From contig JACZXL010000001.1 of the NCBI GenBank assembly GCA_022571635.1, positions 1-38,520 of the forward strand: 38,520 nt of DNA, in the 5' to 3' direction. Each line of letters starts with the position of its first letter. Positions within the stretch are counted from its first letter, which is position 1. Origin of the DNA: Planctomycetota bacterium (GTDB taxonomy: Bacteria; Planctomycetota; Phycisphaerae; Phycisphaerales; SM1A02). This document shows, in pieces, positions 11,203 through 34,754 of this stretch. The notes below the pieces were generated by a model. It saw only the letters and a list, made by a program, of their open reading frames with translations, did not search any database and had not been told where the DNA came from. Position numbers and translations under genes: made by a program.

Positions 11203-11603
11203 AGCTCGTCCCCTGCGCGCCAAAGCGATTCGTTAGTTTGCTGCGTGAGCCCGGCGGCTCCCGCCTCGATCACTCGAATCAGCTCGTCACCGACGGGGAG
11301 GGCGAGGTAGTAGAAAACGCCCTGCTCTATAACCGGCGCATCGGCCGACGACGGCTCTTCACTGATTGCGATGATGCGCACTCCGGGGCATATCTCCTGC
11401 AGCGCTGCGATCTGTTGCCGGGCGATTTCCTGTCGTTCATGGATGCGATCGATGATGGCAATCTGCGGTTGCTCTCGATGCGCGAATTCCGAAAAGCGCT
11501 GGCTCTCGTTTGCGGTGACGATCTTGAAGCGAGCGTCGCTCAGTCGTTTTCTGAGAAACACAACGGTGTTCGGATCCGGGCTGTCAACGAGGATTCGGAT
11601 CAT
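11199..11603 (-). CDS. Degenerate response-regulator receiver protein, first gene of operon
   Basis: 134 residues from ATG 11603, which has AAGGAC 5 bases upstream; the open frame runs back to 11702 without support. The fold matches a stand-alone CheY-like receiver: IRILVDSPDP at the start, a candidate phospho-Asp in QIAIIDRIHE, and RIIAISEE for strand 4. The acidic pair usually near residue 10 is only partly kept. The conserved Lys of the K-P turn is replaced: YYLALPVGDELIRVIE. There is no output domain. It may be a phosphorylation-independent adaptor. It is coupled by ATGA to the subunit III fusion. Confidence 0.7.
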   Translation of the reverse strand: MIRILVDSPDPNTVVFLRKRLSDARFKIVTANESQRFSEFAHREQPQIAIIDRIHERQEIARQQIAALQEICPGVRIIAISEEPSSADAPVIEQGVFYYLALPVGDELIRVIEAGAAGLTQQTNESLWRAGDEL

Positions 11604-15705: not shown

Positions 15706-16779
15706 ATGGACAAGGTCGTGGCACGGAGGCTGCGACCGCACGAAGGCAGGAAGCTGCAGCAACTGAAACGGCAACTGTCCAACGCGGTCAACAGCCGGCG
15801 AGCGAGGGTCATTCTGCTCTCCCGAGGTGGACTTTGCAACCAGAAGGTCGCCCAAGGGGTTGGTCTCAGCCCCCAGTGGGTCAGGCGGATCATCCATCGC
15901 TTCAACGACACTGGGATCGACGGCATCACGTGGTATCCGTACTTCTGCTCCTGCGGCGAGCCGCGCCGGTTCACGCCAGACGTCGTCGAACGGATCGGCG
16001 AAGTCGCTCTCTCGCCGCCGCGGCAGCTCATCGGCATGAGCGTCTGGTCACTGGCGAAGCTGCGTGACTATCTCGTTGAGCAGGGCATCGTCGCGTCGAT
16101 CTCGTTGGAGTGGCTCCGCCAGATCCTGCGGGGGTGCGGCATCCGGTGGCGGCACACGAAGACCTGGATGGACTCGAACGATCCCGAGTTCTGGCCAAAG
16201 TACCAGCGAATCCGCCAACTCTACGACCGCCCGCCGCCGAGGGGCATCCGGCTTTGTCTGGATGAGTTCGGGCCGCTCAATCTGCTTCCGCGGCACGGGA
16301 AGCATTATGCCCGGACCCGACACGTTGATCGGTTGCGCGCAACATACCGACGCACGGGGGGCGTTCGTCACTTCATGGGCCTCTACGACCTCGACCGGGA
16401 CACGTTGACCGGCTACTTCGTCGAGAAGAAGAACCGCCGCACCTTCCTATCGTTCCTTCGGTGGGTGCGGCGGCGGTATCGGAATCGTGGCACGCTTCAC
16501 CTCGTCCTCGACAACGCCACCTTCCACGCCTGTCCCGAGATCCTCGCCTACGCTCGCCCCAACGGCATCCGCTTCTACTGGACGCCAACGAACGCATCAT
16601 GGATCAACCGAATCGAGTGCCACTTCACCGCCTTGCGGAAGTTCACACTCGAGAACACCGACTACGGGAGCCACGATGAGATGCAGACCTCGATCTTCGA
16701 CTACCTGGCATGGCGGAACCGACGCCGCCAAATCAGCGTGCGGGGCTGGACCACCTACCGTCGGAGGCGGGCAGCATGA
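15706..16779 (+). CDS. IS630-family transposase
   Basis: 357-residue DDE transposase. An N-terminal helix-turn-helix (LCNQKVAQGVGLSPQWVRRI, about 43-62) precedes the catalytic core. The catalytic acids are visible in RLCLDEFGPLN (first Asp), LHLVLDNATFH (second Asp) and NASWINRIECHF (Glu). GGAG sits shortly before the ATG. There is no frameshift or internal stop, so it could still be active. It moves the element 15591-16820 by cut and paste at TA. Confidence 0.93.
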   Translation: MDKVVARRLRPHEGRKLQQLKRQLSNAVNSRRARVILLSRGGLCNQKVAQGVGLSPQWVRRIIHRFNDTGIDGITWYPYFCSCGEPRRFTPDVVERIGEVALSPPRQLIGMSVWSLAKLRDYLVEQGIVASISLEWLRQILRGCGIRWRHTKTWMDSNDPEFWPKYQRIRQLYDRPPPRGIRLCLDEFGPLNLLPRHGKHYARTRHVDRLRATYRRTGGVRHFMGLYDLDRDTLTGYFVEKKNRRTFLSFLRWVRRRYRNRGTLHLVLDNATFHACPEILAYARPNGIRFYWTPTNASWINRIECHFTALRKFTLENTDYGSHDEMQTSIFDYLAWRNRRRQISVRGWTTYRRRRAA

Positions 16780-17490: not shown

Positions 17491-18837
17491 TTAGCGAATC
17501 AGATAGAACAACGGAAAGAGGAAGATCCAGATCAGGTCCACGACGTGCCAATAGAGGCCGCCGAGATCGACGGGTGCGAAATAGGTGCGGCCAAAGTGGC
17601 CCCAGATTGATCGAACCATGAGCCATGCGATCACGCCCAATCCCACCAGCACGTGCAGGCCGTGCAGACCGGTCATGACGAAGTAAAACGTGAAGAAGAG
17701 ATGGGCGTTTGCCGGCCGGTCGGGATCGACGCTTTGATGCACAGGGCCTTCGGCACTAAACCGAGGCGATTGTGGCGCGCCCTCGTGCGCGGCCAGCACC
17801 GCTAAGTTCATCCCGGCGGGGGCGCTGCGCGCCAGCGGAATGCTCGAGGCAGGGATCCAGAACTCCTCTTGGACCGGCTCGCTCGCTGTCTCGATTGCGG
17901 CCGGAGTGCTTGGACGCACGACATCATCGGCAGCAACGTCGATCGGGGCGACTCGTTCTTGGGCCGCCGTATCGTCTTTTACCGCATTGTCAGTCGTAAA
18001 CTGTGGGAGCGGCGCCTGGAAGTTCCGAACGTATGCGATGACGTGGACAAGATCCTGTTCCGTGAGCAACGGGTTACCACCCTTGGGCGGCATCGCCATG
18101 CCAGTGGTGTTCAGCGGATCCCCTACGGTCCGACCCACCTTGATGTACGCGACAGGCTCAAGATCATCGCGACTCTGAATGAACTCACTGGAGCGGATGT
18201 CTCTGCCTTGGCCGGCGACTCCTTCACCAGCAACACCGTGACACGAGCGGCAGGTGGTGTTCCAGATTCTCGTGCCTTTGGCGAGATCGCCCGGAGCGAG
18301 CGTTCCCGCGGCGCCGGAACCGGTCGCCAAGTCGAACCCAGGAGGAAGCTCGTAGAACTTTGTTCCCCAAACGAGGTTCTCGTGGAACTTGTGCTCATAC
18401 TCGACGGACTTGACGGCCATGAAAATGACGCCGCAGAGGAAGGTTGCTGCCAGCGCGATGATGACCGGCCATCGGCGGTTGCGTTGCACGAAGGTGACGG
18501 CGGTCGCCATGAACACACTGCTGACGATCAGAACCACGGTGTTGGCCGCGCCCCACTTCACGTCAAGGAATCCCCGTTCCCCCACCCAGGCGAAGACCTC
18601 GGGATGATTGCCGCGGAAGACAGCATACGCGCAGAAGAGCCCGCCGAAGAGGAGTACTTCCGTGGCCAGGAAAAGCCACATGCCCAACTTCGCGGCTTCA
18701 TATTGCTGGGGCATGGTGTCGAAGTGGGGAGCCAGTTGTGGCCACCGATCATGAGCGTCGCGTTGGTCTACCGTAGCCGCGGCGACTTGCTTCGCGTCGA
18801 CTGCCCGTGGTTGGAGTGCGAGGTTGGTAGCGGTCAT
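17491..18837 (-). CDS. Heme-copper oxidase subunit III with embedded cytochrome c domain (copy B)
   Basis: 448 residues with the same plan as the copy at 9982-11202. Subunit III helices include GMWLFLATEVLLFGGLF, then an extramembrane cytochrome c domain with CRSCH at 196-200 and AMPPKGGNPLL as probable Met loop. A ~90-residue Pro/Ala-rich linker follows, then the final subunit III helices (TGLHGLHVLVG, YWHVVDLIWIFLFPL). The two copies are close in the membrane parts and in the heme domain but differ in the linkers, so they are paralogues rather than a recent duplication. It lies 50 bases downstream of the Rrf2 regulator gene. No subunit I or II gene accompanies it. Confidence 0.9.
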   Translation of the reverse strand: MTATNLALQPRAVDAKQVAAATVDQRDAHDRWPQLAPHFDTMPQQYEAAKLGMWLFLATEVLLFGGLFCAYAVFRGNHPEVFAWVGERGFLDVKWGAANTVVLIVSSVFMATAVTFVQRNRRWPVIIALAATFLCGVIFMAVKSVEYEHKFHENLVWGTKFYELPPGFDLATGSGAAGTLAPGDLAKGTRIWNTTCRSCHGVAGEGVAGQGRDIRSSEFIQSRDDLEPVAYIKVGRTVGDPLNTTGMAMPPKGGNPLLTEQDLVHVIAYVRNFQAPLPQFTTDNAVKDDTAAQERVAPIDVAADDVVRPSTPAAIETASEPVQEEFWIPASSIPLARSAPAGMNLAVLAAHEGAPQSPRFSAEGPVHQSVDPDRPANAHLFFTFYFVMTGLHGLHVLVGLGVIAWLMVRSIWGHFGRTYFAPVDLGGLYWHVVDLIWIFLFPLFYLIR

Positions 18838-19529: not shown

Positions 19530-19661
19530 TAGTTGGTCTGAATATCTTGATTTATCGTCCGGGGGCCGATAGATTCTCAACGGCTCGTGATCGGACGGGG
19601 TGATTGCCAGCGGAAGCACGCGCCAGCCGCCGAAAGCGAGCCCTGGTTCGGAGCATTTGTG

Positions 19662-20450
19662 ATGGGCAGTCTCGAACAGAGCGCCTGGGATCGCCTACGG
19701 TCCATGAAGGATCCTGGCTCGCGCCGCGACATCGTTTCGCTCGGCTTAGCCAAAGACATCGAGTTGACGGGGCGCATCCTGACGGTCCACCTGGCACCGC
19801 CCAGTGGCGACGCGTACGGACATGAGGCGCTGGCGACTGCGATCCGCCGTGAGCTGGGCCCTCTGGAAGGTATCGACAGAGTCATTGTGACGTGGGCCAA
19901 ACCCAGACCAAACGATGGCGAAAATGGTTCGCCGGCGAGCTCCCCCCTGCATCTGCCGATTCTCAACGATGTCGCCAACCCGGAGTTTGACGCGATGAAC
20001 GCGTCGCTCGGACGGGCCGGCATAGCGCCCGGTGCAGGCTATGGCGATGGCGGACCGGAGCAGTTGCCGTCCCCCGAGTCTGAGATTCCCAACGATCGCT
20101 ATGAAGGTTGGCCTCCCGTCTATCAGTGGGAGATCGACCCGGCCGATCCATCTCTGGTCAGCGGCGAATCCCACGTCAGGATCGGTGACTGGGAGTACGA
20201 CATCTGGTGGCAGGCGCATCCCGCCGACCTCATCTACGCCTCGATTCAGGCGCTGGCAGACGACACGATCACCAGTGGACCGGAGCGTCAGCATCCGATG
20301 GGGCGCAATGTCGTGGTGAATGTGGTCTACGACCGCCGGCGCGAAGCGGTGGTCGCTGTGTACGGAACCGCCCGCGACTTCCGGCCGTTCATCGAAGCAT
20401 TCAGCATGGGCTGCAAGCTAGAGCAACACGCGAAGGAGTCCAACGAATGA
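19662..20450 (+). CDS. MIP18/SufT-like (DUF59) protein heading the nar operon
   Basis: 262 residues from ATG 19662. Residues ~5-85 match the small DUF59 fold used in Fe-S cluster maturation (RLRSMKDPGSRRDIVSLGLAKDI, beta strand ILTVHLAPP, GIDRVIVTW). The usual Cys of the fold is not seen. The remaining ~175 residues (WPPVYQWEIDP, IGDWEYDIWWQ, GRNVVVNVVYD) form a second domain I do not recognise. Its TGA overlaps the narG ATG (ATGA), so it is translationally coupled to NarG. A role in inserting or checking Fe-S clusters of NarGH is a reasonable inference. Confidence 0.65.
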   Translation: MGSLEQSAWDRLRSMKDPGSRRDIVSLGLAKDIELTGRILTVHLAPPSGDAYGHEALATAIRRELGPLEGIDRVIVTWAKPRPNDGENGSPASSPLHLPILNDVANPEFDAMNASLGRAGIAPGAGYGDGGPEQLPSPESEIPNDRYEGWPPVYQWEIDPADPSLVSGESHVRIGDWEYDIWWQAHPADLIYASIQALADDTITSGPERQHPMGRNVVVNVVYDRRREAVVAVYGTARDFRPFIEAFSMGCKLEQHAKESNE

Positions 20451-23400
20451 CGACCGGCCACTCCAATGGCAAAAAATCTCGCTGGTTTCGCGTGGCGGAT
20501 GAGCCGCGGGACTGGGAGGATTTCTACCGCGAACGATGGTCTTACGACCGGTCCGTCCGCACCAGCCACGGCGTGAACTGTTCGGGGTCCTGTTCGTGGG
20601 AGGTGTTCGTCAAGAACGGCCTGATCTGCTGGGAACTCCAGAAGACCGACTGGCCCCAGATCAATTCGGATACTCCCAACTACGAGCCGCGCGGCTGTCA
20701 ACGGGGGATCTCGGCATCGTGGTATCCCTACAGTCCGGTTCGCCCCAAGTATCCGTATATCCGCGGCGTGCTGCTCGATTTTTATGAAAAGGAACGAGCT
20801 GGGGGCAAGGATCCGGTCGAGGCTTGGGCCGCGATCGTCGAAGATCCCGAGCGCAAGAAGACATACCGACAAGCGCGGGGTAAAGCGGGATGGAGACGCA
20901 GTAGCTGGGATCTGGCTACCGAAATCTGGGCGGCGGCCATTATCTATACAACCAAGAAGTACGGTCCGGATCACCTTGCTTCGTTTTCACCCATACCGGC
21001 CATGAGCATGGTGAGCTTCATTTCGGGCCACCGCTTCTGCAACTTGCTCGGCGGAACGATGCTCAGCTTCTACGAGTGGTACCACGATCTGCCGCACGTC
21101 ATGCCCATGATGTGGGGCGATCAAACGGACGTTGCGGAAGCAGCGGACTGGTACCAGAGTACGTACTGGATGGTCATTGGCTCCAACTTGCCCATGACGC
21201 GAACCCCCGATGCGCACTTTGCGTCCGAGTTCAAATACAACGGCGGCAAAATCGTCAACCTGTCGTCAAACTACTCGGACATGACAAAGTTCGCCGACCT
21301 GTGGGTGCCGGTTCGCCCGGGAACGGACGCTGCCTTCCTGCTCGCCTGCATTCACGTGATTCTGCAGGAATGCCACGTCAATCGCGAGGTCAGCTACTTC
21401 CGCGAGTACATCAAGAAATACACGAACCTGCCGTTCATCGTCCAACTGGATCCGTACAAAGACAATCGGTATCTCCAGGGCCGCTTCCTCCGCGCAAGCG
21501 ACTTCTCCCAATATGAGAACGAGGAGAACGCAGACTGGAAACTGCTCATGATGGATCAGGCGAGCGGCGAGTTGAAGCTTCCCGTCGGCACGCTCGGCTT
21601 CCGTTGGGAAGAACAAAAGACCGGAAGGTGGAATCTCAAGTCTGAGGACGCGAGTACGGGTGAGTCGTTTGATCCCATGATCAGTTGCATGGGCGACAAA
21701 GGAACGTTCGAGGAAGTTCAGGTCCTTTTCTCCGATTTCACCGACACCTTTGACACGACGCTCGGCAGCACAGAAGGCAAAGGACGGCCCGCTGTGTCCC
21801 TAACCCGAGGCGTGCCGGTCAGAAAGCTCAAGACCAAAGACGGCAAAGAAATCATCGTTACCACCGCCTTCGATCTGCTTCTGGCACAACTCGGCGTGAA
21901 CCGTGGACTCTCCGGCGATTATCCCAAGGACTATGACGACGCGTCCGTGCCTTACACCCCGGCATGGCAGGAACAGGAGACGGGTGTTGATCGGGAACTC
22001 GTGATCCGAGTCGCTCGGGAGTGGGCGGAGAACTCCGAGAAGACCAAGGGCAAGAGCTTGTTCATCACCGGATCAGGGGTTCTTCACTGGTACCACGGTG
22101 GCACACTTACCTATCGAGCGATGGCCGTGATGGGAATCATCACCGGCTGCATGGGACGAAACGGCGGGGGGTTCAACCACTACGTAGGTACAGAGAAAAT
22201 CCGCCCATTCGCTGCTATTGGAACGCTCGGCGGCGCCTCTGACTGGACAGGTCCGCCGCGACACCAGAACAGCACCTCATACTTTTACTTTCACACCGAC
22301 CAGTGGCGCTACGACGGCATGGTGCTCGATCCCATCTGGGCGCCGTGGGCGGAGAAGTTCCCGGCCAAGGGGAATCATGCCGCAGACTTGAACATGTTGG
22401 CCGTTCGACTCGGTTGGTTACCGTTCTATCCGCAAGTCGACAAGAAGAATCCAATCGAGTTCCTGAAGGAAGCGCGCGCATCCGGCGCCCAATCAGAAAA
22501 AGAGGTTGGTGATTTCGTTGCCAAGAAGTTCAAGGATGGGAGTGAGCGTTTCGCCCTCGAGGATGTGGATGCTGAGGTCAACCACCCCAAAGTGCTGTGG
22601 ATCTGGCGGGGCAACCTCATTGGCACGAGCATGCGCGGCCACGAGTACGGCTTGAAGCACTTCCTTGGCACCCACAACAACGTGCTCGGCCAGGATCGCG
22701 CCGAGGGGCTTGTCAAGGAGGTTGAATGGCACGAACAAGCGCCGCTGGGGAAGCTTGATCTCGTCGTCAACGTCAATCTTCGAATGGACTCGTCGGCCAA
22801 CTACGCCGACATCGTGCTCCCCACAGCTCACTGGTACGAGAAATACGATCTCACCTGCTCGGACCTGCACTCCTTCTTCCATCCGTTCACGCCGGCGCAT
22901 GATCCACCGTGGGAAGCGAAACATGACTGGGAGGTTTTCAAGGCGATTGCGGCCAAGGTGAGCGAGCTGGCTAAGACGCATCTTCCCGATCCGTTCGACG
23001 ACATGGTCATGACGCCGATGATCACGGATTGCCCGGACGAGATGGCTCAGCCAATGGGCGAGCTGCGGGACTGGAAGACCGGTGATGTGGACGTCATCCC
23101 CGGCAAGACGTTCCCCAACGTCAAGATTGTCCAGCGCGACTACACCAAAATCCTCGACAAATACACGACCTTTGGACCGAACGTTTGCCGGCCGGAGGGG
23201 TACGGGTGTAAAGGCATCAAGGGTGATCTCACCGAGGTCTACGAGCAACTCAAGGAGAGTTACCTCGTGGGCGAGAAGGACGGGCGTCCTTCTCTGGAAA
23301 GTGCCGAGCAGGTATGCGAGGTGATTCTGCGGATTTCGCCCGAGAGTGACGGCGAAGTCTCGTACATGATCTTCAAGAACTTGGAGAAGCGCTGTGGGGT

Positions 23401-24211
23401 GCCCTTAGCGCACCTGGTGGAAGGGGAACGTGAAATCCACCACCATTATCCGGAATTGCAATCTCAGCCTCGGCGTAGCCTGACCTCACCGCATTGGTCC
23501 GCCATCGAAAGCCCGGGCCGGACGTACTGCCCCTGGACATTGAACGTTGAAGCCCTCAAGCCGTGGCACACACTGACCGGCCGACAGGAGATCTACTTCG
23601 ACCATCGTGGTTATCGCGAACTCGGTGAGTCGTTGCCTACCTACAAGCCGCCGGTGGACATGGTGAAGATCGGCGACTGTGCGCCGCATCTGGCCGAGGA
23701 GAATTCGAAGGTGTTCCGCTTCTTGACGCCGCACGGTAAGTGGCAGATTCACAGCATGTTCTGGGACACTTGGCACATGCTCAACATGTTTCGAGGCGGC
23801 CAGGTGGTCTGGATCAACGACGACGATGCAAAGGAGATCGGCGTCAAAGACAACGATTGGGTTGAGATCTACAACGAGAACGGGATCGCCAATGTGCGAG
23901 CCGTAGTGACAGGAACGGTGCCGCGCGACACGGCCATCATGTACCACTCGTCGGAGCGCCATATCGCCGTGCCCTTCTCACCCTTGGCGCGGAAGCGCAA
24001 AGTCAGTGATCTACGAGGGGGAAACAACAACGCCACGACGCGGATCATGATGAACCCCGCCACCATGATCGGGGGCTACGCCAACTGGACGTACTTCCTC
24101 AACTATTGGGGAACCAGTCCGTCGGAGCGGGATTGCGCCGTATTGATACGCAAGATGCCGTTGGAGTCTGGTCCCAAGAAGGTCATCTACCAAGAGAAAG
24201 ATCTTCGGTGA
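20447..24211 (+). CDS. narG: Respiratory nitrate reductase alpha subunit (Nar/Nxr type)
   Basis: 1254 residues, close to E. coli NarG (1247). The start is set by the ATGA overlap with the preceding gene. There is no Tat signal, so it is cytoplasm-facing. The FS0 cluster ligands H41, C45, C49 and C84 keep exactly the spacing of E. coli H49/C53/C57/C92. The molybdenum-ligand region GDQTDVAEAADWYQSTYW retains the Asp. GSNLPMTRTPDAHF and the C-terminal molybdopterin-binding domain are also present. It reduces nitrate to nitrite with bis-MGD; Nitrobacter-type nitrite oxidoreductases are close relatives, so direction cannot be decided from this alone. The neighbours narH, narJ, narI and narK favour a membrane NarGHI complex. 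Confidence 0.96.
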   Translation: MTTGHSNGKKSRWFRVADEPRDWEDFYRERWSYDRSVRTSHGVNCSGSCSWEVFVKNGLICWELQKTDWPQINSDTPNYEPRGCQRGISASWYPYSPVRPKYPYIRGVLLDFYEKERAGGKDPVEAWAAIVEDPERKKTYRQARGKAGWRRSSWDLATEIWAAAIIYTTKKYGPDHLASFSPIPAMSMVSFISGHRFCNLLGGTMLSFYEWYHDLPHVMPMMWGDQTDVAEAADWYQSTYWMVIGSNLPMTRTPDAHFASEFKYNGGKIVNLSSNYSDMTKFADLWVPVRPGTDAAFLLACIHVILQECHVNREVSYFREYIKKYTNLPFIVQLDPYKDNRYLQGRFLRASDFSQYENEENADWKLLMMDQASGELKLPVGTLGFRWEEQKTGRWNLKSEDASTGESFDPMISCMGDKGTFEEVQVLFSDFTDTFDTTLGSTEGKGRPAVSLTRGVPVRKLKTKDGKEIIVTTAFDLLLAQLGVNRGLSGDYPKDYDDASVPYTPAWQEQETGVDRELVIRVAREWAENSEKTKGKSLFITGSGVLHWYHGGTLTYRAMAVMGIITGCMGRNGGGFNHYVGTEKIRPFAAIGTLGGASDWTGPPRHQNSTSYFYFHTDQWRYDGMVLDPIWAPWAEKFPAKGNHAADLNMLAVRLGWLPFYPQVDKKNPIEFLKEARASGAQSEKEVGDFVAKKFKDGSERFALEDVDAEVNHPKVLWIWRGNLIGTSMRGHEYGLKHFLGTHNNVLGQDRAEGLVKEVEWHEQAPLGKLDLVVNVNLRMDSSANYADIVLPTAHWYEKYDLTCSDLHSFFHPFTPAHDPPWEAKHDWEVFKAIAAKVSELAKTHLPDPFDDMVMTPMITDCPDEMAQPMGELRDWKTGDVDVIPGKTFPNVKIVQRDYTKILDKYTTFGPNVCRPEGYGCKGIKGDLTEVYEQLKESYLVGEKDGRPSLESAEQVCEVILRISPESDGEVSYMIFKNLEKRCGVPLAHLVEGEREIHHHYPELQSQPRRSLTSPHWSAIESPGRTYCPWTLNVEALKPWHTLTGRQEIYFDHRGYRELGESLPTYKPPVDMVKIGDCAPHLAEENSKVFRFLTPHGKWQIHSMFWDTWHMLNMFRGGQVVWINDDDAKEIGVKDNDWVEIYNENGIANVRAVVTGTVPRDTAIMYHSSERHIAVPFSPLARKRKVSDLRGGNNNATTRIMMNPATMIGGYANWTYFLNYWGTSPSERDCAVLIRKMPLESGPKKVIYQEKDLR

Positions 24212-24260: not shown

Positions 24261-25805
24261 ATGCAGGTCAAACAACAGATGGCGATGGTGTTCAACCTCG
24301 ACAAATGTCTGGGCTGCAACACGTGCACGCTCGCATGCAAGAACATCTGGACCAACCGCGAAGGCGCGGAGTACATGTTCTGGAACAACGTCGAGACCAA
24401 GCCAGGGATCGGCTATCCCAAACAGTGGGAGAATCAGGAGAAATATCGGGGTGGTTGGAAGCGGAAACCCTCTGCCGACGGACCAGCGCTGAATATCGGG
24501 TCGCGGTTCTGGATGATGATCAATCTTTTCTATAACCCCGTCATGCCGCAGATGGATGAATATTACGGCAAAGGGCCGTTCACGTTCACCTACGAGGATC
24601 TTCATTCCGACAAGCCGACAAAGTTTTCGCAGCCGGTGGCGCGGCCTAAATCGCAAATCACCGGAGAGGAAGACATAGCCATCGAGTATGCGGTCAACTG
24701 GGAGGACAACGGCGCTGGGGCGACCGAGGACGGCCTCGGCGGGATGGACGTGAACTTCAGCAATATGACGGACGTGGAACGAAAGGCGCTGCTGAGCTTC
24801 CGCGATTCGTTCATCATGTACCTGCCCCGCATTTGCAATCATTGCATGAACGCGCCTTGTGTCGCGGCATGTCCGAGCGGCGCTGCCTACAAACGCGAAG
24901 AGGACGGCGTCGTTCTCATCGATCAGAACCGCTGCCGCGCGTGGCGGTACTGTATTTCAGGATGCCCCTATAAAAAGCCGTACTTCAACTGGCGCACCGG
25001 GAAGATGGAAAAGTGCATCCTGTGCTATCCGAGGCTTGAAGCCGGACAACCGCCCGCATGCTTCCACGCTTGCCCAGGTCGCATCCGTTATATGGGTCCG
25101 CTTCTTTACGACATGGATCGCGTACCCGAAGCCGCCAACGCGCCTGAAGAAGACCTCGTTCAAGCGCAACGCGACATCATCCTCGATCCGAACGATCCGG
25201 AGGTGCTCGCCGCAGCACACGAAGCGAACATAAGCGAAGCGTGGCTCGATGCATGCCGACGATCTTCCGTGTACCGGATGGTCAAGGATTGGGAGATTGC
25301 TCTGCCTTTGCACCCGGAGTTCCGTACGCTTCCATGCCTGTTTTATATCCCGCCTGAAAGCCCGGTGCGAACGCGTGCCGATGGAAGCGACTGTATCAGC
25401 ATGGTGAACGGGCACAGCGTCCTACCGAACCTCGACGACTTCAGAATCCCCGTGAAGTTCCTGGCCAGCTTGTTTTCTGCGGGCCACGACCAGCCGGTCA
25501 AGACGGCGCTTCTGCGACAGTTGGCGGTCCGCGCCTTTCGGCGCTCGGAGCGCGTGGAAGGCGAACTCGATCTGAAGGTACTTCAGAGCGTTGGTCTTAC
25601 CGAGAAAGATGCGAGGGACATGCACCGCTTGCTGGCGCTGGCGCACTTCCACGAACGTTTTGTCATTCCAACGACCCGCCGCGAGCGCACGGCAAATTCA
25701 CCGTACATTGAGCGCGGATTCTCGGGCTTCAGCGAGATGACGCCGTCCGATGCGCCCCGTCGCCGGAGCTTCTTCCACGGTCGACGCGAAGAGGTGGGGA
25801 GCTAA
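24261..25805 (+). CDS. narH: Nitrate reductase beta subunit, Fe-S protein
   Basis: 514 residues. It carries four Fe-S clusters that conduct electrons between NarI and NarG. The first Cys group C16, C19, C22, C26 (CLGCNTCTLAC) is at the same residues as in E. coli NarH. CNHCMNAPCVAACP is the second. CRAWRYCISGCPYKKP has Trp instead of the second Cys, the hallmark of the 3Fe-4S cluster. CILCYPRLEAGQPPAC completes the set. GGAG precedes the ATG by 9 bases. It starts 49 bases after narG. Confidence 0.96.
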   Translation: MQVKQQMAMVFNLDKCLGCNTCTLACKNIWTNREGAEYMFWNNVETKPGIGYPKQWENQEKYRGGWKRKPSADGPALNIGSRFWMMINLFYNPVMPQMDEYYGKGPFTFTYEDLHSDKPTKFSQPVARPKSQITGEEDIAIEYAVNWEDNGAGATEDGLGGMDVNFSNMTDVERKALLSFRDSFIMYLPRICNHCMNAPCVAACPSGAAYKREEDGVVLIDQNRCRAWRYCISGCPYKKPYFNWRTGKMEKCILCYPRLEAGQPPACFHACPGRIRYMGPLLYDMDRVPEAANAPEEDLVQAQRDIILDPNDPEVLAAAHEANISEAWLDACRRSSVYRMVKDWEIALPLHPEFRTLPCLFYIPPESPVRTRADGSDCISMVNGHSVLPNLDDFRIPVKFLASLFSAGHDQPVKTALLRQLAVRAFRRSERVEGELDLKVLQSVGLTEKDARDMHRLLALAHFHERFVIPTTRRERTANSPYIERGFSGFSEMTPSDAPRRRSFFHGRREEVGS

Positions 25806-25809
25806 AGTC

Positions 25810-26505
25810 ATGTGTACCGCGGACCTCACGGCAAGCTACCAGCTCATCAGTGAGTTGCTGCTCAATCCACAGGAGCGTGATCCGGCGTTGGTCAAGAGAC
25901 TGCATCGCTTTCTGGAAGAGGCGAACGAGGACGTTGAGCGCTGGATCGCCAAGTTCCTCGCCACTCCCGGTTCCACGTCGCGCGACGAGTACGTGCAGAC
26001 GCTCGAACTCTCACCGCCCTGCCCGCTGTACCTCGGATCGTATCTCTTCGACGAGCCGACCACGTGCAACGGCGTCGGCACGTCGGGGCGGAACGCGTAT
26101 ATGCTTGAATTGGCGGGCATTTACGGTCATTTCGGATTCGATATCACGGCGCGCGAACTTCCCGACTATTTGCCGGCCATCGTTGACTTTCTGTGGATCA
26201 GCCTGGAGAACCAGGATCGCGACGGCATTGGGTTGCGTCGACGATTCGTCGAGCAATATGTCTTTCCCGGTCTCAAACCGCTGAAAGCGGCGCTGCAAAA
26301 ATACAAGAGTCCGTATGCCTTGCTCGTCTCGGCCCTGCAAAGCGCGGTGGAGCAAGACCTGAGCCGAATGGCTGATGATGCACCCGCCTGGAAGCCGGCT
26401 GAAGAAGCATCGGGGACTCGCGTGTCTCTGCCGGTTCTGTCCGGGACGGGCGGCGATGTGCCGATCCGAGAAACGCTGGCGAGCCACGGGGAGGTTCGGC
26501 CATGA
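25810..26505 (+). CDS. narJ: Nitrate reductase assembly chaperone NarJ
   Basis: 231 residues from ATG 25810, four bases after the narH stop and preceded by GGAG. This is the all-helical TorD/NarJ fold: LISELLLNPQERD near the start, then PPCPLYLGSYLFDEPTT, ELAGIYGHFGF and ELPDYLPAIVDFL, which are family landmarks. NarJ holds apo-NarGH until the molybdenum cofactor and clusters are inserted and it docks to NarI. It is not part of the final enzyme. Confidence 0.92.
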   Translation: MCTADLTASYQLISELLLNPQERDPALVKRLHRFLEEANEDVERWIAKFLATPGSTSRDEYVQTLELSPPCPLYLGSYLFDEPTTCNGVGTSGRNAYMLELAGIYGHFGFDITARELPDYLPAIVDFLWISLENQDRDGIGLRRRFVEQYVFPGLKPLKAALQKYKSPYALLVSALQSAVEQDLSRMADDAPAWKPAEEASGTRVSLPVLSGTGGDVPIRETLASHGEVRP

Positions 26506-26585: not shown

Positions 26586-28364
26586 ATGTCGCGCGCAACT
26601 GAAACACTCGTGGTCTTCACGTGCCTTGCGGTGCTCTCCGTGCTGTCGTGGTTCGTGGTGCGGCAGATCGCTGAGTATTCCTCGTCACTGGAATCGCAAG
26701 TCGCTCAAGCTCCGCCGCTCGTTATTGACACTGCGCCTCCGCCGCTGGTTGTCTCGGAGCAACCAGCGCAGGTGTCGATACCCCAAACTCCGCCAGCTAG
26801 CCCCGCGGGGCAACCGCAGTCCATCGTCGAAGGACTTCGTGCGCACAACGGCGCAAGAAGTTACGCCGAACCAAGTGAGAAGTCAGCTATGAACAACTTT
26901 CTTTGGGGCGTTTACCCGTATCTATGTATCGTGCTGTTCTTCGCGGTGCCGCTGATCCGGATGGTCTTCCGACCATTCTCATGGAGCACTCGCGCCAGCG
27001 GCTTGTTCGGTCGCAAACTGCTTGGCGCGGCCTCGCTGTTGCTTCATTGGGGGCTTGCGCTGGTGTTGTTGGGACACCTCACGGGACTGATCGGAGGCGT
27101 GCTCGGGTCGCAAGGCGCGGTCACGTTCTTTTATTGGTCCGGACTGCTCGGGGGCTCCATGGTGCTGGTGGGATCGGTGATCGCGCTGTATCGCCGGTTG
27201 ACGACGCCGGAAGTGCGCGCGATGAGCCAAGTTGACGACTTCGTCGTTCACCTGTTCATCATCCCGATCGTGGGGCTCGCCCTCTACCAGGTGCTCGTTC
27301 ATCGGATCTTTGGCGTCGCATTCGGGGCGTCCACTTGGGCTGCGAGTTTGTGGACCCTCTCACCACAGCCGGAGCTGATGGCCTCGGCAAGTCTTATTAC
27401 CAAGCTGCACATCTTGCTCGCGCTGACCTTCTTCGCGTACTTCCCCTTCACAAAACTGGTTCACTTCTGGACGTTCCCCATCAACTACTTTGTCCGCCCG
27501 TACCTCTCGATGCGTACGCAGCGCTATCGCTTCCAACGCCGTTGGGAATTCGCATGGCGGAGCGACAAATCCTGGCTTACCTATGGACTGGGCTCCGTGG
27601 CGGTGATCTTCCTCGTCGCCGCGATGTTGTTGGGGCGAACGCAGCCATCCGAAGCGTCGGGGATTGCTTTGACGTCGACAGCGTTGGAGACGAACAACGG
27701 GTCTCTACTGACAGGGTACGCCCTATATGTGAGTCAATGTGCCCGCTGCCACGGCGTTCATGGGCGCGGCGACGGTTCCGGCGCAAACTCCCCGACATTC
27801 TCGGCGCCGCCGCGCGACCTCATCGCCGCCCGCTACCACTTCGTGTCTACGGAAAACGGCATCGCCTCCGATGATGATCTGTACCGCACAATCTACCGGG
27901 GGCTCAGCAATACCGGGATGCCGGCATTCGCTGATCTGACCAATGGGCAGATCGTTTCATTGATCGATGTGCTCAACGATTTTCGTGCCGATGGGTCGAA
28001 GCCCGGCCGACCGATCGCGGTGGGGCCGCCCCCGCCTGCGACCGAGCAAAGCATCGCGCGCGGTCAAGCGTTGTATGTCGAAGCATGCGCTAACTGTCAT
28101 GGCGCTGAAGGTAGGGGTGACGGCGAGAGTTTGTCCTTTGACTACCTTCAACAACGGGTCGTTCCCGCGGATCTCAGGGCGGGTGACATCAAATCCGGCG
28201 ACGATCCCGAGCAGATATACCTCCGCATCACGACTGGAATCCCCGGAGGGTACGAGGGAGCGTACATCATGCTGAACTTCGGCCAACTCTCAGAGGCCGA
28301 TCGGTGGGCCCTGGTCCATTACCTCAAGACTCAGATCATGCCCGCGTCCGACGAGTCTGAATGA
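26586..28364 (+). CDS. narI: NarI (cytochrome b) fused to a diheme cytochrome c
   Basis: 592 residues, against about 225 for ordinary NarI. Residues 1-101 are an extension with one membrane helix (about 8-27) and a Pro-rich linker. NarI begins at Met102 and keeps the four b-heme His: H154/H164 (spacing 10) and H275/H293 (spacing 18), as in E. coli H56/H66 and H187/H205. An extra helix (about 332-350) then crosses the membrane, followed by two cytochrome c domains, CARCH 385-389 and CANCH 501-505. The extra helix puts these hemes in the periplasm, as required. Start choice is uncertain: neither ATG 26586 nor Met102 (26889) has a good ribosome site. Thermus NarC, a separate cytochrome c working with NarI, is a functional precedent. 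Confidence 0.9.
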   Translation: MSRATETLVVFTCLAVLSVLSWFVVRQIAEYSSSLESQVAQAPPLVIDTAPPPLVVSEQPAQVSIPQTPPASPAGQPQSIVEGLRAHNGARSYAEPSEKSAMNNFLWGVYPYLCIVLFFAVPLIRMVFRPFSWSTRASGLFGRKLLGAASLLLHWGLALVLLGHLTGLIGGVLGSQGAVTFFYWSGLLGGSMVLVGSVIALYRRLTTPEVRAMSQVDDFVVHLFIIPIVGLALYQVLVHRIFGVAFGASTWAASLWTLSPQPELMASASLITKLHILLALTFFAYFPFTKLVHFWTFPINYFVRPYLSMRTQRYRFQRRWEFAWRSDKSWLTYGLGSVAVIFLVAAMLLGRTQPSEASGIALTSTALETNNGSLLTGYALYVSQCARCHGVHGRGDGSGANSPTFSAPPRDLIAARYHFVSTENGIASDDDLYRTIYRGLSNTGMPAFADLTNGQIVSLIDVLNDFRADGSKPGRPIAVGPPPPATEQSIARGQALYVEACANCHGAEGRGDGESLSFDYLQQRVVPADLRAGDIKSGDDPEQIYLRITTGIPGGYEGAYIMLNFGQLSEADRWALVHYLKTQIMPASDESE

Positions 28365-28453
28365 CCCATCATGGGCCGAACACTTACCCGGCATGAGTCT
28401 GCGGCACGCGGGTAGAGGGGCCTGCGTACTCACTCGTGCGAGGCGACGGTCAA

Positions 28454-30001
28454 ATGAACGAACAGTTCGGACCTGGAGATCGCGGTCGAGCGTGGTGGAT
28501 TCTCGCCATGAACACGTTCGCATTCACGGTCTGCTTCGCAGCGTGGATGATGAACGGTGTGCTCATCACGTTCCTGGTGGACAACGGCATACATGACTGG
28601 GATCCGGCCGAGATGGGATGGCTCATCGGCATCCCGGTGCTCACCGGCGCGATCTTTCGCTTGCCACTGGGCTTGGCGACGGATAAGTGGGGCGGCCGGA
28701 TCGTATACGGCCTGCTTCTGCTCCTGGCCGCAATCCCCATGTTCTTGGTCAGCTATTGCAACACCTATTGGCATTTCTTCGTGGCCGGCCTGGGGTTCGG
28801 TTTTGCCGGCACAAGTTTTGCGATCGGTATCGCCTACACATCCGTCTGGTTTCCCTCGAGACTGCAGGGGACGGCCCTGGGGATCTTCGGCGCAGGGAAC
28901 GCAGGCGCGGCGCTCACGGCGGTCGGTGCACCGCGCGTGCTGAATTGGCTGACGAACAATGGCGAGCAGCTCGACCAATGGAGACAGCTCCCGAAGATCT
29001 ATGCGGTGATGCTTGCGGTGACGGGAGTGATCTTCCTTCTCACCACCAAAACCCGCATACCTGCAGGAAGCGCTCAAAAAACCCTCAGTCAGCGGCTGAT
29101 CCCCTTGAAGTCCATCCGCGTGTGGCGCTTCGGCTTGTACTATTTCTTCGTGTTCGGCGGCTTCGTGGCGCTTGCGCAATGGCTCGTGCCGTATTACGTC
29201 AACGTCTATTCCACGACCGTGGTGCTGGCGGGCACGTTGACCGCCGTCTTCAGCTTTCCCTCCGGGGTGATTCGCGCCGCGGGCGGCTGGATGTCCGACA
29301 AGTTCGGGGCCCGGGCGGTGATGTACTGGGTGTTTGGCCTTTCCGTCATATGTTGTGCTTTACTGATCGTTCCGCAGATGGATATTCACGCTCCCGGCAG
29401 CGGCCTCATGGCCAGGTTCTCGGGAACGGTCGTCTCTGTCTCCGATGCGCAGATCGTTGTTGAATCGGACAAAACAGGGGTCAAGACCTATACGCTCACG
29501 CCGCGCCAGGGGGACCTTGTCACCGACGATGATCGCCACTCAGGGCTGCTAATCTGGCCTCGTTCGATGTCGTGGCAGGAACCGGTCGTCGAGGTGGGGG
29601 ACGCGGTTGGCAAGAAGGAGTTGTTGGCGCGCGGCGTCACACAAATCTTCTTTCAGGCCAACATCTGGATCTTCACCGGCCTGTGTTTCATCATCGGCTC
29701 ACTGATGGGAATCGGCAAAGCCGCGGTGTACAAGCACATTCCAGATTATTTCCCCAACGATGTAGGCGTGGTCGGCGGCATCGTGGGCGTCCTTGGGGGT
29801 CTTGGCGGTTTCGTTTGCCCCGTGATCTTTGGCTACTTGCTCCGTGAGACCGGCCTGTGGACGACCTGTTGGATGTTCTTCTTCGTCTTGGTTGCTGCGT
29901 TGCTCTTTTGGATGCACGTCGTTGTTCGTCGAATCATGAAGCAACAAGCTCCGGAGTTCCTGCGGGAAATCGAGTCGGGCCCCGTGATTCTAAAGGATTA
30001 G
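28454..30001 (+). CDS. narK: NarK-type nitrate/nitrite transporter with an extramembrane insertion
   Basis: 515 residues from ATG 28454 (GAGG 9 bases upstream). Twelve-helix MFS protein of the NarK group: IFRLPLGLATDKWGGR and IRAAGGWMSDKFGAR hold the two substrate-binding Arg, and GAGNAGAAL is the nitrate signature. Residues about 312-395 form a hydrophilic insertion (starting RFSGTVVSVSDAQIVVES, with VGDAVGKKELLARG near its end) that ordinary NarK lacks. It could fold as a small beta barrel. It sits 90 bases after narI and 3 before the next transporter. Confidence 0.88.
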   Translation: MNEQFGPGDRGRAWWILAMNTFAFTVCFAAWMMNGVLITFLVDNGIHDWDPAEMGWLIGIPVLTGAIFRLPLGLATDKWGGRIVYGLLLLLAAIPMFLVSYCNTYWHFFVAGLGFGFAGTSFAIGIAYTSVWFPSRLQGTALGIFGAGNAGAALTAVGAPRVLNWLTNNGEQLDQWRQLPKIYAVMLAVTGVIFLLTTKTRIPAGSAQKTLSQRLIPLKSIRVWRFGLYYFFVFGGFVALAQWLVPYYVNVYSTTVVLAGTLTAVFSFPSGVIRAAGGWMSDKFGARAVMYWVFGLSVICCALLIVPQMDIHAPGSGLMARFSGTVVSVSDAQIVVESDKTGVKTYTLTPRQGDLVTDDDRHSGLLIWPRSMSWQEPVVEVGDAVGKKELLARGVTQIFFQANIWIFTGLCFIIGSLMGIGKAAVYKHIPDYFPNDVGVVGGIVGVLGGLGGFVCPVIFGYLLRETGLWTTCWMFFFVLVAALLFWMHVVVRRIMKQQAPEFLREIESGPVILKD

Positions 30002-30004
30002 CGC

Positions 30005-31606
30005 ATGGCGAACCTGGAACATTGGGACGTAGAGAACGACGAATTCTGGGAAAACACCGGAAAGAAGATCGCCCGGCGCAACCTGTGGATCTCAATCCCG
30101 AGCCTGCTCTGCGGGTTTGCGGTTTGGCTGTACTGGGGCATCATCACCGTACAGATGCTCAACCTTGGATTCCCCTTTGAACAGGCAGATCTCTTTACGC
30201 TCACGGCGATTGCAGGGTTGGCTGGCGCCACGCTGCGAATCCCCAGTACGTTCTTCATCAGAATTGCCGGCGGTCGGAACACCATCTTCTTCACCACCGC
30301 CCTGTTGATGATACCAGCGGCAGGAACCGGCTTTGCGCTGCGGAACATTGATACGCCTCTGTGGGTGTTTCAGCTTCTGGCGCTGCTCACTGGGTTTGGC
30401 GGCGGGAACTTCGCTTCGTCCATGTCCAACATCAGCTTCTTCTTCCCCAAACGAGTGCAGGGCACGTCGCTTGGCCTCAACGCCGGGCTCGGCAACTTCG
30501 GCGTCACCACCATGCAGATCCTGGTCCCGTTAGTGATGACTTTTGGGATATTCGGTGGCGACTCGATGACACTCGTCAACTCCAGCGGAACGCTGATCGG
30601 AAAAATCGAGGCCGGCACGGAGACCTACATTCACAACGCGGGCTTTATTTGGCTGGTGTTCTTGATTCCGCTTGCCTTTGCAGGCTGGTTCGGGATGAAC
30701 AACATCAAGACCGAGGCGGTGACGCCTGAGTTGGACGGACCTATTCCCGCATTTGTCAGAATCACCTTCCTACTGGCGATCGCTCTAGTGACGGCCACCG
30801 CCGGGCTTTATCTCATTCTGCCCAAGCCGACTGGTCTGGAGCTTCTTAGTAAGTGGGTCGTCCTACCGCTCGTGATTGCCGGAACGGTCATTCTCATGCG
30901 GTTTCTGAGCTGGGGAAGCCTCAAGGCCAATCTGAAGCGGCAGTACCAGATATTCTCCAACAAGCACACTTGGGCTATGACCGTCATCTACACGATGACC
31001 TTTGGATCGTTCATTGGCTATTCTGCAGCGTTTCCGCTTGCGATCAAGGTCATCTTCGGCTTTCAGCATCTGACCGTTGACGGTGTGCTGACTCACAACA
31101 CGGTGAATCCTAATGGACCGAGTGCGCTCATGTTCGCATGGATGGGGCCGTTCATCGGCGCGCTGATTCGACCGGTCGGTGGATGGATCGCCGACAAGGT
31201 GGGCGGGGCGAAGGTGACTCAGATCGTCTCGATCGTGATGATCCTCTCGGCGCTCGGTGTCGCGTATTTCATGAAGATGGCTTATCAGTCAGCAACGCCG
31301 GAGCAGTACTTCTGGCAGTTCTTCGTGCTCTTTATTATTCTCTTCACGGCCACAGGTATGGGCAATGGGTCGACGTTCCGTACGATCGCCGTTGTGTTCA
31401 ATGCGGAGCAGGCGGGTCCGGTGCTCGGGTGGACCTCAGCCGTGGCGGCATACGGGGCGTTCATCATCCCAAAGGTTTTCGGAGAGCAGATCAAGGCGGT
31501 GACGCCTGAGTATGCCCTGTATGGTTTCGCGGTCTTCTACTTCATATGCCTGGTGCTCAACTGGTGGTTCTATTTGCGGCCCAACGCCTATGTGAAGAAT
31601 CCTTAG
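30005..31606 (+). CDS. narK: NarK/NarU-type nitrate/nitrite transporter
   Basis: 533 residues. It starts RRNLWISIPSLLCGFAVWLYW like E. coli NarK. Arg78 in ATLRIPSTFF and Arg389 in LIRPVGGWIADKVGG match the two nitrate-binding Arg of NarK (R89, R305). GLNAGLGNFGVTTMQ is the nitrate signature. Three bases separate it from the first transporter, so they are co-transcribed. Paired NarK1/NarK2 proteins commonly split nitrate/proton import and nitrate/nitrite exchange; which is which cannot be told here. It is the last gene of the operon, and no clear terminator hairpin follows. Confidence 0.93.
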   Translation: MANLEHWDVENDEFWENTGKKIARRNLWISIPSLLCGFAVWLYWGIITVQMLNLGFPFEQADLFTLTAIAGLAGATLRIPSTFFIRIAGGRNTIFFTTALLMIPAAGTGFALRNIDTPLWVFQLLALLTGFGGGNFASSMSNISFFFPKRVQGTSLGLNAGLGNFGVTTMQILVPLVMTFGIFGGDSMTLVNSSGTLIGKIEAGTETYIHNAGFIWLVFLIPLAFAGWFGMNNIKTEAVTPELDGPIPAFVRITFLLAIALVTATAGLYLILPKPTGLELLSKWVVLPLVIAGTVILMRFLSWGSLKANLKRQYQIFSNKHTWAMTVIYTMTFGSFIGYSAAFPLAIKVIFGFQHLTVDGVLTHNTVNPNGPSALMFAWMGPFIGALIRPVGGWIADKVGGAKVTQIVSIVMILSALGVAYFMKMAYQSATPEQYFWQFFVLFIILFTATGMGNGSTFRTIAVVFNAEQAGPVLGWTSAVAAYGAFIIPKVFGEQIKAVTPEYALYGFAVFYFICLVLNWWFYLRPNAYVKNP

Positions 31607-32398: not shown

Positions 32399-33844
32399 TC
32401 AGACGGGCGAAGTCAGGCGTCCATTCCTCCCGAACGCAATCCGCAGCCACGTCGCCACCAGCGCAAACAGGAAGAGCGCCGTGCCACATCCTGCGCTGGC
32501 GAAAACATAATAGTTGCAACTCTGGAGCCATTCGGGCGGCGGCAGGAGTTGGTATCGCGTATAGCCCACGATGATGCCGGAGATGTGCAGCCACACGATG
32601 AGCGCGCCCGCCATGACGTTCAGCCCCACGATGAGGAATCGCATGCGCGGCGAATGAAGAACCGCATCTGCGCCCGTGCGCCGGGTCAGGACCTCGCTCA
32701 GAATCCACGAGACGGCGGCGAAGAGCACCATGCTGTCGATCCCGATTTCCGTGCCCATAGCATGTGCGGTCACCACATGCGTGCCGTGCACGAGCGCATT
32801 GAGCGGAGGCACCGAAAGCAGCAACGAGGTGAACAGCATTGCGCACGTCCACCATTTTGCGGCGACGATGAAACAACGCGTCGAGTTGAACGGATCACCC
32901 TTTCGGCGCGAAGACATCCGTGCAATATCCGAGATGATCCGAATCAGGATGAGCGCCTCGGTCATGCTCACGATGAAACTGATCCACTTGACCACCTCGC
33001 TCTGCGGGACGTGGTAGGTGTGGTGGGCGAAGTTCGTAAAGGAGTTGAGCAATCCCACCCCAAAGAGCGCGTAGGCCATCTTGGAGTAGGCGTAGTCTTT
33101 ATCGCCGGAGAGTTTCTCGCCGACGTAGTACAGGGTTCCGTACACGAGGAGATTGAAACTGCCAACCAGGGTTCCCGTCGCCTTCCACTGGAGTCGAAGA
33201 TCGACGATTGGGGAGTTGAAGACACCCTTGAACAGCCATACATGCTGCTCCAGAAACGTGTAGATAAAGAGCAATGCGCCGACACCCCACATGGTCACGT
33301 ACACAGGCCGGCCCCAGAACCGGCGCCCGACTGCGCGAAAAAAGTTCCACGCAAAGAGGAGCCAGCCGAGCAAGATCGCGGCCGAAAAGGCGGGATGGAA
33401 TCCCATGTATTCGCGGCCGGATGAGATCCCCATCGCCAGCGTTACCAGGATTCCCATCCCCGTCAATCCCCAGAGTGAAACCTGCACGAGCAGGCGCCGG
33501 CGTTCGGCGCTTGTGGTGGCGCCGCCGTGATCCTGGAGGTAGTGGTGCACGACCGCGATGCCGCCGAGGAATATCCATGCGGACGCAAAGGTCGTGTGAA
33601 TCGGTCGCAATGCCGCGAAACTCAACCCGGGGCGCACGAGAAACGAGGCAGCGCCGGGAATGTAAAACAACACGGCCAGGACTCCGGCTCCGACCGTGAT
33701 CGCCAGCGACACCAGGCTGCCGCGAAGAAACGTCAGCGTGGCGTAGCGGCGAACCGGATCGACGGATACATACCATGGCGAATCTTCGCCCGAATCAACG
33801 GCCGCCTCATCCTGTGTCTCGCGCGGGGCGTTCGGCGGAATCAT
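32399..33844 (-). CDS. Divergent NorB-like heme-copper oxidase subunit I
   Basis: 481 residues from ATG 33844 (ATGA overlap with the upstream cytochrome gene). About twelve membrane helices. NO-reductase/cbb3 hallmarks include LRPIHTTFASAWIF with the heme b His (H83), NFAHHTYH with the metal-site pair H274/H275, and VHGTHVVTAHAMG with the high-spin heme His (H361). Three positions depart from NorB. Counting 51 residues back from H274, as in NorB His207-His258, gives T223 in QWKATGT instead of His. The catalytic Glu211 position falls on Val227. His349, the second heme b ligand, is Met363 (AHAM). The fold is clear; the chemistry is not. It could be an unusual NO reductase or dismutase, or a non-catalytic electron-transfer subunit. 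Confidence 0.8.
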   Translation of the reverse strand: MIPPNAPRETQDEAAVDSGEDSPWYVSVDPVRRYATLTFLRGSLVSLAITVGAGVLAVLFYIPGAASFLVRPGLSFAALRPIHTTFASAWIFLGGIAVVHHYLQDHGGATTSAERRRLLVQVSLWGLTGMGILVTLAMGISSGREYMGFHPAFSAAILLGWLLFAWNFFRAVGRRFWGRPVYVTMWGVGALLFIYTFLEQHVWLFKGVFNSPIVDLRLQWKATGTLVGSFNLLVYGTLYYVGEKLSGDKDYAYSKMAYALFGVGLLNSFTNFAHHTYHVPQSEVVKWISFIVSMTEALILIRIISDIARMSSRRKGDPFNSTRCFIVAAKWWTCAMLFTSLLLSVPPLNALVHGTHVVTAHAMGTEIGIDSMVLFAAVSWILSEVLTRRTGADAVLHSPRMRFLIVGLNVMAGALIVWLHISGIIVGYTRYQLLPPPEWLQSCNYYVFASAGCGTALFLFALVATWLRIAFGRNGRLTSPV

Positions 33845-34623
33845 CGAAACTCCCACCACGGCACATGGGGCCAGGCAACGCCGTCGCTCTGGGTCGGTTC
33901 GGTCGCCGCCGCGCGCAACACGGCGCGGTGTTCGCCCAGCCACATGAGAAACTCGTATGTCAATTCCCGCCCCTGGGCAGAGAGTGACGGGGCAGGCATG
34001 CCGGGAAGACGGCCGTTCTCCAGCACCTCCATGATCTGCGAATAAATCAGGCGATCGCCCACGTCGATCAGATCAGGCGCGATTGTACTTGCTTGCCCCA
34101 ACTGGATGTGACATCCCTGACACCCTCGGCTCATGAAGAGGTTGAATCCCTCGATTGCGTTAGCATCATCAGACACGGCAAGTTCCTGCTCGATGGCCTG
34201 CAACAGCCGCGAGGCGGGATCTTCACCGGCAAATCTCGCCTGCCCGCGACCGGTGTCGTTCATCGCTGCCAGAAACGCGCTGAAGGCCTCGATCTCATCC
34301 GAAGAAAGATTGAATGACGGCATCTGCTCGGATCCCACGGTCAACAAATGCTCCAGACGCTCGGGCGTCAGTCGTTGGGTCGCATTGGTCAGGTCGGGGC
34401 CGAGGAATCCCCCGAACCCGTAGAACTGATGACAACTCTGGCAATTGTGGCGGTGCCAGATTCGACGTCCTTCGCGTGCTGCGTCGGACAGCGGCGGACT
34501 GTCAGAGGCATCGAAATAGACGAGGCTACTCTGTATGAAAAAGCACGAGACGAGGACGAGCATCAAGCCCTGCTTGGTAGGTATGCTGCAGGGCATACAC
34601 CAGAATCCGCGTTCGTTCGCCAT
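33841..34623 (-). CDS. NorC-like membrane-anchored diheme cytochrome c
   Basis: 260 residues from ATG 34623; earlier (34698) and later (34596) Met codons are possible and none has a strong ribosome site. One membrane helix (about 20-37), then EGRRIWHRHNCQSCHQFYGF (heme 1, C61-H65), like NorC's GKxxW...CxxCH, and a second heme CQGCH at 168-172. Candidate Met ligands are in EQMPSF and LPGMPAPS. Ordinary NorC has one heme. It is coupled to the NorB-like gene by ATGA and is most likely its electron-entry subunit. The 315 bases upstream hold a short tandem repeat and the divergent P450 promoter. Confidence 0.85.
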   Translation of the reverse strand: MANERGFWCMPCSIPTKQGLMLVLVSCFFIQSSLVYFDASDSPPLSDAAREGRRIWHRHNCQSCHQFYGFGGFLGPDLTNATQRLTPERLEHLLTVGSEQMPSFNLSSDEIEAFSAFLAAMNDTGRGQARFAGEDPASRLLQAIEQELAVSDDANAIEGFNLFMSRGCQGCHIQLGQASTIAPDLIDVGDRLIYSQIMEVLENGRLPGMPAPSLSAQGRELTYEFLMWLGEHRAVLRAAATEPTQSDGVAWPHVPWWEFR

Positions 34624-34754
34624 ATAGAATCCGGCTGAGGCATGTCCATCGCGGCTTCCCTGCAACCGGCCGGGGGCGAGGACCGCATCAGTGTTCATTG
34701 TAACGCGTCGTATGGGATGCGGGAGCAGGCCGGGGCCGCTCCAACCCGCGGGGG

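Follow-up and report, generated by a model that had tools for sequence, protein, structure and literature searches.

The window, by which we mean the whole stretch of 38,520 nucleotides analyzed here, is one entire contig (C278) of its source genome, which its named relatives mark as a Phycisphaerae-type planctomycete, and carries a nar operon in the order DUF59-type protein, narG, narH, narJ, narI-c, narK1, narK2. The features that matter here are these:

19587..20450, + strand: FeS_assembly_P (DUF59) protein, directly upstream of narG and conserved in fused operons
20447..24211, + strand: narG, catalytic subunit (TIGR01580, 1428 bits)
24261..25805, + strand: narH, iron-sulfur subunit (TIGR01660, 649 bits)
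25810..26505, + strand: narJ chaperone, start set by orthologues (the listed open reading frame begins at 25750)
26586..28364, + strand: narI-cytochrome c fusion gene, 592 amino acids (open reading frame translation, Pfam, alignment)
26604..26660, + strand: added N-terminal transmembrane helix, residues 7-25 (hydropathy, alignment)
26661..26888, + strand: Pro-rich linker, residues 26-101, predicted periplasmic, poorly conserved
26889..27518, + strand: NarI domain, residues 102-311, five helices (Pfam, profile, alignment, fold Z about 20 to E. coli NarI)
27117..27119, + strand: Ala178, aligned with quinol-site Lys86 of E. coli NarI (alignment)
27576..27632, + strand: extra transmembrane helix, residues 331-349, predicted to bring the chain to the periplasm (hydropathy)
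27738..27752, + strand: first heme c motif CARCH, residues 385-389, distal Met445
28086..28100, + strand: second heme c motif CANCH, residues 501-505, distal Met562
28436..30001, + strand: narK1-type nitrate/nitrite transporter (profile matches)
30005..31606, + strand: narK2-type nitrate/nitrite transporter (profile matches)

The N-terminal sequence of NarG has no twin-arginine leader, and nitrate reduction is therefore expected on the cytoplasmic side. The DUF59-type protein (about 265-310 amino acids) precedes narG in fused operons of both Planctomycetota and Verrucomicrobia; near the nar genes of Thermus (L103) there is likewise a metal-sulfur cluster assembly factor. NO-reductase-like genes and NorE/COX3-like proteins flank the operon on both sides. 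On the reverse strand, a COX1-family protein and a two-CxxCH cytochrome (32399-33943 and 33841-34698) resemble NorB and NorC of a cytochrome c-dependent NO reductase, with weak matches to the family models. Two COX3/NorE-like proteins (17491-18837 and 9982-11223, reverse strand) have a cytochrome c domain inserted between their COX3 parts, and relatives of these come after narK2 in L027, L028, L030, and L031. Further upstream, a gene at 4688-6508 (reverse strand) encodes a diheme cytochrome c joined to a heme domain of the ethylbenzene-dehydrogenase type (PF09459) and is clustered with a sigma-54 regulator, a histidine kinase, a porin, and another diheme cytochrome c; relatives of the regulator, the kinase, and the 8233-9006 gene adjoin narI-c in L041. 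A DDE_3-domain transposase (15706-16779, forward strand) separates this upstream cytochrome cluster from the nar region. A search for a nitrite reductase partner returned no NirK above the cut-off (the C343 match being a multicopper oxidase) and no convincing match to NirS. NosZ was found in one fusion genome only.

The fusion gene is an unbroken reading frame in translation, from an ATG at 26586 to a stop at 28364, and is the sole narI found in the window's genome. Pfam NarI (PF02665) matches residues 103-311 with an E value of 1.4e-49 (169.1 bits, cut-off 22.9), NCBIfam narI (TIGR00351) scores 109.3 bits (cut-off 105.55), and the tail holds two Pfam cytochrome c domains (E about 2e-19). By alignment, H154, H164, H275, and H293 correspond to the E. 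coli heme b ligands H56, H66, H187, and H205, with identical spacing inside each pair; all four ligands are thus intact, as a sequence-only reading of this DNA had stated. Hydropathy yields seven helices: residues 7-25, five within NarI, and residues 331-349. Because the loop preceding the last helix (residues 283-330) is rich in K/R (9, versus 2 D/E), the positive-inside rule places the tail in the periplasm. The same reading had assigned the c hemes to that side by way of an extra transmembrane segment, and helix 331-349 together with this loop leads to the same prediction: two Met-ligated class I c hemes in the periplasm. Both CxxCH motifs, Met445, and Met562 are invariant in 12/12 fused proteins. 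The N-terminal anchor and Pro-rich linker, also pointed out earlier, are present here but restricted to part of the Phycisphaerae; since they are absent in L032, L041, L111, and L118, the core design, as judged by alignment, is NarI, a helix, and a diheme cytochrome c, with the anchor lying outside it.

When about 85,000 species genomes were scanned, the fusion turned up in further Phycisphaerae and Planctomycetota MAGs (L024-L031 and L041) and in groundwater Verrucomicrobia MAGs (L032 and L033), such that Phycisphaerae, another Planctomycetota lineage, and Verrucomicrobiota are all represented. About a dozen loci from independent MAGs carry it, at 53-96% identity, and in every case NarI and the c-heme tail occupy one frame, not separate polypeptides. 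Such recurrence rules out an assembly artefact, chance, or a frameshift. One genome of the same genus (G001) encodes the fusion at 96% identity, while no full-length match was found in another (G002, 96% complete). Sampled genomes carried the fusion in 4/397 cases for the class Phycisphaerae, 2/387 for the phylum of L032, and 0/398 for Pseudomonadota. Among other NarIs of the planctomycete phylum, the 30 with the highest scores all lacked a c tail. The fused proteins group as one clade with 100/100 support in a 64-sequence NarI tree. The fusion is thus real, conserved, and rare. One Planctomycetota MAG (G1081, loci L119 and L120) encodes two NarI-cytochrome c fusions; it is apparently the same genome as that of L027 and L029. 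Two pattern matches without NarI (L035 and L036) were discarded as fusions. Pairwise identities gave no clear sign that fused NarI has diverged faster than NarG and NarH, and that idea was set aside despite a long NarI stem branch. Neither kind of NarI fusion, to cytochrome c or to a Rieske domain, was found described in the openly accessible papers searched.

The tail has a close relative of known structure. A profile built from three fusions matched chain B of the Kuenenia complex 6H5L, a cytochrome, with an E value of 9e-33, and E. coli NarI with an E value of about 1e-23. A first AlphaFold model, from 12 sequences, was poor (pLDDT 49.6); a second, from 22 sequences and covering residues 93-592, could be used for the individual domains (pLDDT 73, pTM 0.60). 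This second model gave Z scores of 25.1 against 6H5L chain B, across 206 residues, and of about 20 against NarI structures. The tail is therefore a homologue of the Kuenenia diheme cytochrome, its closest solved relative. Derivation of the tail from a fused Thermus NarC was not supported: the similarity is weak and the topology different.

Nar is, in textbook form, a quinol-oxidizing redox loop, and it is at the quinol site that the fused NarIs stand apart. The position of E. coli K86 is A (8), W (4), or S (2) in 14/14 fused NarIs, a basic residue being absent throughout, whereas 47 unfused NarIs have R (31), K (11), Y (3), or H (2), for a K/R count of 42/47. From H66 to K86, every fused protein has 13 residues and every other NarI 18-20, which makes the fused loop 5-7 residues shorter. 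Bertero et al. reportedly found in 2005 that K86 variants impair quinol oxidation. Structures of E. coli NarI are available for K86A (PDB 1Y5I) and for a complex with a quinol-site inhibitor (1Y4Z). From these alignments, the fused NarIs appear to have lost part of the quinol site, although it could have been rebuilt with other residues. The unfused NarIs with Y belong to Niallia, Streptomyces, and Rhodococcus, and Thermus NarI, which has a separate NarC, keeps both the basic residue and the full loop. A basic residue at this position is thus usual in NarI but not universal, and hence not defining. As the fused proteins form one clade, their residue change is to be counted as a single event.

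A second such change accompanies a different fusion. Other Planctomycetota MAGs encode NarI fused to a Rieske domain (L108:8915-10444, L109:8730-10046, and L110:8069-9382), in operons where narG (itself preceded by a two-CxxCH cytochrome) and narH come before the fusion gene, with cytochrome b of the bc type and a c-type cytochrome after it. In the 64-sequence tree and alignment, these proteins form a separate NarI clade, with F at the K86 position and a loop of normal length (18 residues). The fused and Rieske clades together make only two events. As two independent additions of a periplasmic carrier to NarI both lack the basic residue, they suggest that the quinol site becomes less necessary once electrons enter through such a carrier.

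A candidate source of electrons for the c tail is complex III. At L028 (OFTM399 contig), about 40 bp separate the nar operon from a complete, divergently oriented ActABCDEF operon, an arrangement seen in this one locus only. In the window's genome, an alternative complex III cluster precedes an aa3-type oxidase, and NrfD-type genes occurred in 11/11 fusion genomes searched. A search for cytochrome b of the PF00033 family found none in the window's genome and none in the majority of the Phycisphaerae fusion genomes covered, several of which are incomplete MAGs. The available text of the Oslofjord tunnel MAG study, which the OFTM names match, describes 13 instances of an ACIII-like cluster downstream of Nar genes and contains no mention of the fusion (PMC10732223).

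On balance, we favor a reading in which the fusion is the membrane subunit of a cytoplasm-facing NarGHI that is hard-wired to the periplasmic cytochrome c pool and draws on quinol by way of complex III. Quinol would be oxidized by alternative complex III, with reduction of cytochrome c in the periplasm; the diheme tail, tethered by about 25 residues, would then pass electrons to the distal heme b of NarI, and from there they would move through the proximal heme b and NarH to NarG, where nitrate would be reduced in the cytoplasm. Such an enzyme would be a nitrate-using analogue of cytochrome c oxidase, electrogenic by virtue of inward electron flow and proton uptake on the inside, and energy would be conserved at complex III as well. 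The broader claim that this is a quinol-independent cytochrome c:nitrate oxidoreductase placed behind alternative complex III, with a second, independent Rieske/cytochrome b solution elsewhere in the Planctomycetota, has in our estimate an even chance of being right. The fusion, the heme ligands, the changed quinol-site residue, and the genomic setting are observed and the topology is predicted, whereas we infer the loss of quinol oxidation by the fused NarGHI, the direction of electrons, and the identity of the partner. Passage of electrons between the c hemes and the Nar core, as put forward in the sequence-only reading, is well supported by the fusion, the predicted topology, and the conserved ligands. 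That reading had allowed the c hemes either to bypass or to supplement quinol: the loss of the K86-type residue, the shorter loop, NarI-Rieske, and the complex III genes beside nar in one genome make bypass the likelier version, and a supplementary role is less favored. It had likewise allowed either nitrate reduction or, in reverse, nitrite oxidation; here narK1, narK2, and the NO-reductase-like genes favor nitrate reduction, and reversal is the less likely direction.

Electrons might instead leave through the tail. If NarI oxidized quinol as in the branch proposed for Thermus NarC (PMC7694296), the c hemes would carry electrons outward to periplasmic or membrane acceptors, such as the neighboring NO reductase, and would replace complex III when nitrate is scarce. 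The NO-reductase-like genes on the same contig (32399-34698) and the failure to find a bc1 cytochrome b in the window's genome are consistent with this role. We nevertheless regard it as unlikely: Thermus NarI has the basic residue and the full loop, both of which the fused NarIs lack, ACIII is present to reduce cytochrome c, and NarC differs in topology and is encoded by a separate gene. A complex running in reverse as a nitrite oxidoreductase, in which the tail would supply cytochrome c and an oxygen reductase with electrons, has a precedent in the cytoplasm-facing Nxr of Nitrobacter, described as passing electrons via a NarI homologue to a NarC homologue (PMC7694296), and an aa3-type oxidase is present in the window's genome. 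The OFTM MAG authors could not assign direction from NarG/NxrA sequence alone; yet they favored nitrate reduction for NarG-type sequences (PMC10732223), and the company of two NarK-type transporters and NO-reductase-like genes also speaks against nitrite oxidation, which we hold to be quite improbable. Least of all do we expect the tail to serve chiefly in assembly or membrane attachment with little part in catalytic electron flow. In Thermus, maturation of NarG and attachment to the membrane both require NarC (PMC7694296), but the invariance of both c-heme motifs and both distal Met residues in 12 divergent proteins goes beyond what a scaffold needs.

If entry of electrons from the cytochrome c pool is indeed the route, nitrate respiration gains the complex III coupling site and a higher proton yield, both of which have been proposed, unproven, for Streptomyces Nar1 (PMC7931247). 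The fusion fixes the partner within one polypeptide, and the question is therefore directly testable. The same route points to a possible means of energy conservation in nitrate-respiring Phycisphaerae sampled from groundwater, tunnel biofilm, and marine settings, while the K86 position and the loop length provide residues by which c-linked Nar might be recognized in metagenomes.

Comparison with known systems places the fused complex among several partial relatives. It shares with E. coli nitrate reductase A (NarGHI, 1Q16) homologues of NarG, NarH, and NarJ, the NarI fold, and the four heme b His, but E. coli NarI is without the c-heme tail or extra helices and keeps Lys86 and the longer loop. 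The nitrate reductase of Thermus thermophilus (narCGHJIKT) likewise has a diheme c-type cytochrome, NarC, as an extra periplasmic Nar part, and the window's NarG is about 51% identical to Thermus NarG. However, NarC is encoded by a separate gene upstream of narG and has a signal-like N terminus and a C-terminal helix, and Thermus NarI has Arg at the K86 position; the window's operon has no separate narC gene upstream of narG, its diheme being fused and anchored at its N side. In Streptomyces, Nar1 depends on the bcc-aa3 supercomplex, with transfer from the c hemes of QcrC to NarI judged feasible, so that here too electrons are proposed to come from a diheme cytochrome c and not directly from quinol, although the complexes associate and there is no fusion (PMC7931247). 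The diheme cytochrome in the Kustc0457/Kustc0458 complex of Kuenenia (6H5L chain B) matches both heme domains of the tail in sequence and fold but pairs with an HAO-like enzyme, reported to reduce nitrite (PMC12485887), and is not fused to a membrane cytochrome b; that it may feed electrons into its partner is no proof of direction in the fused Nar. Finally, the NarI-Rieske fusions resemble the fused NarI-c in carrying a periplasmic carrier after an added C-terminal helix and in having no basic residue at the K86 position, yet they differ in using a Rieske 2Fe-2S center instead of c hemes, in an operon that includes cytochromes b and c, in their separate clade, and in their normal loop.
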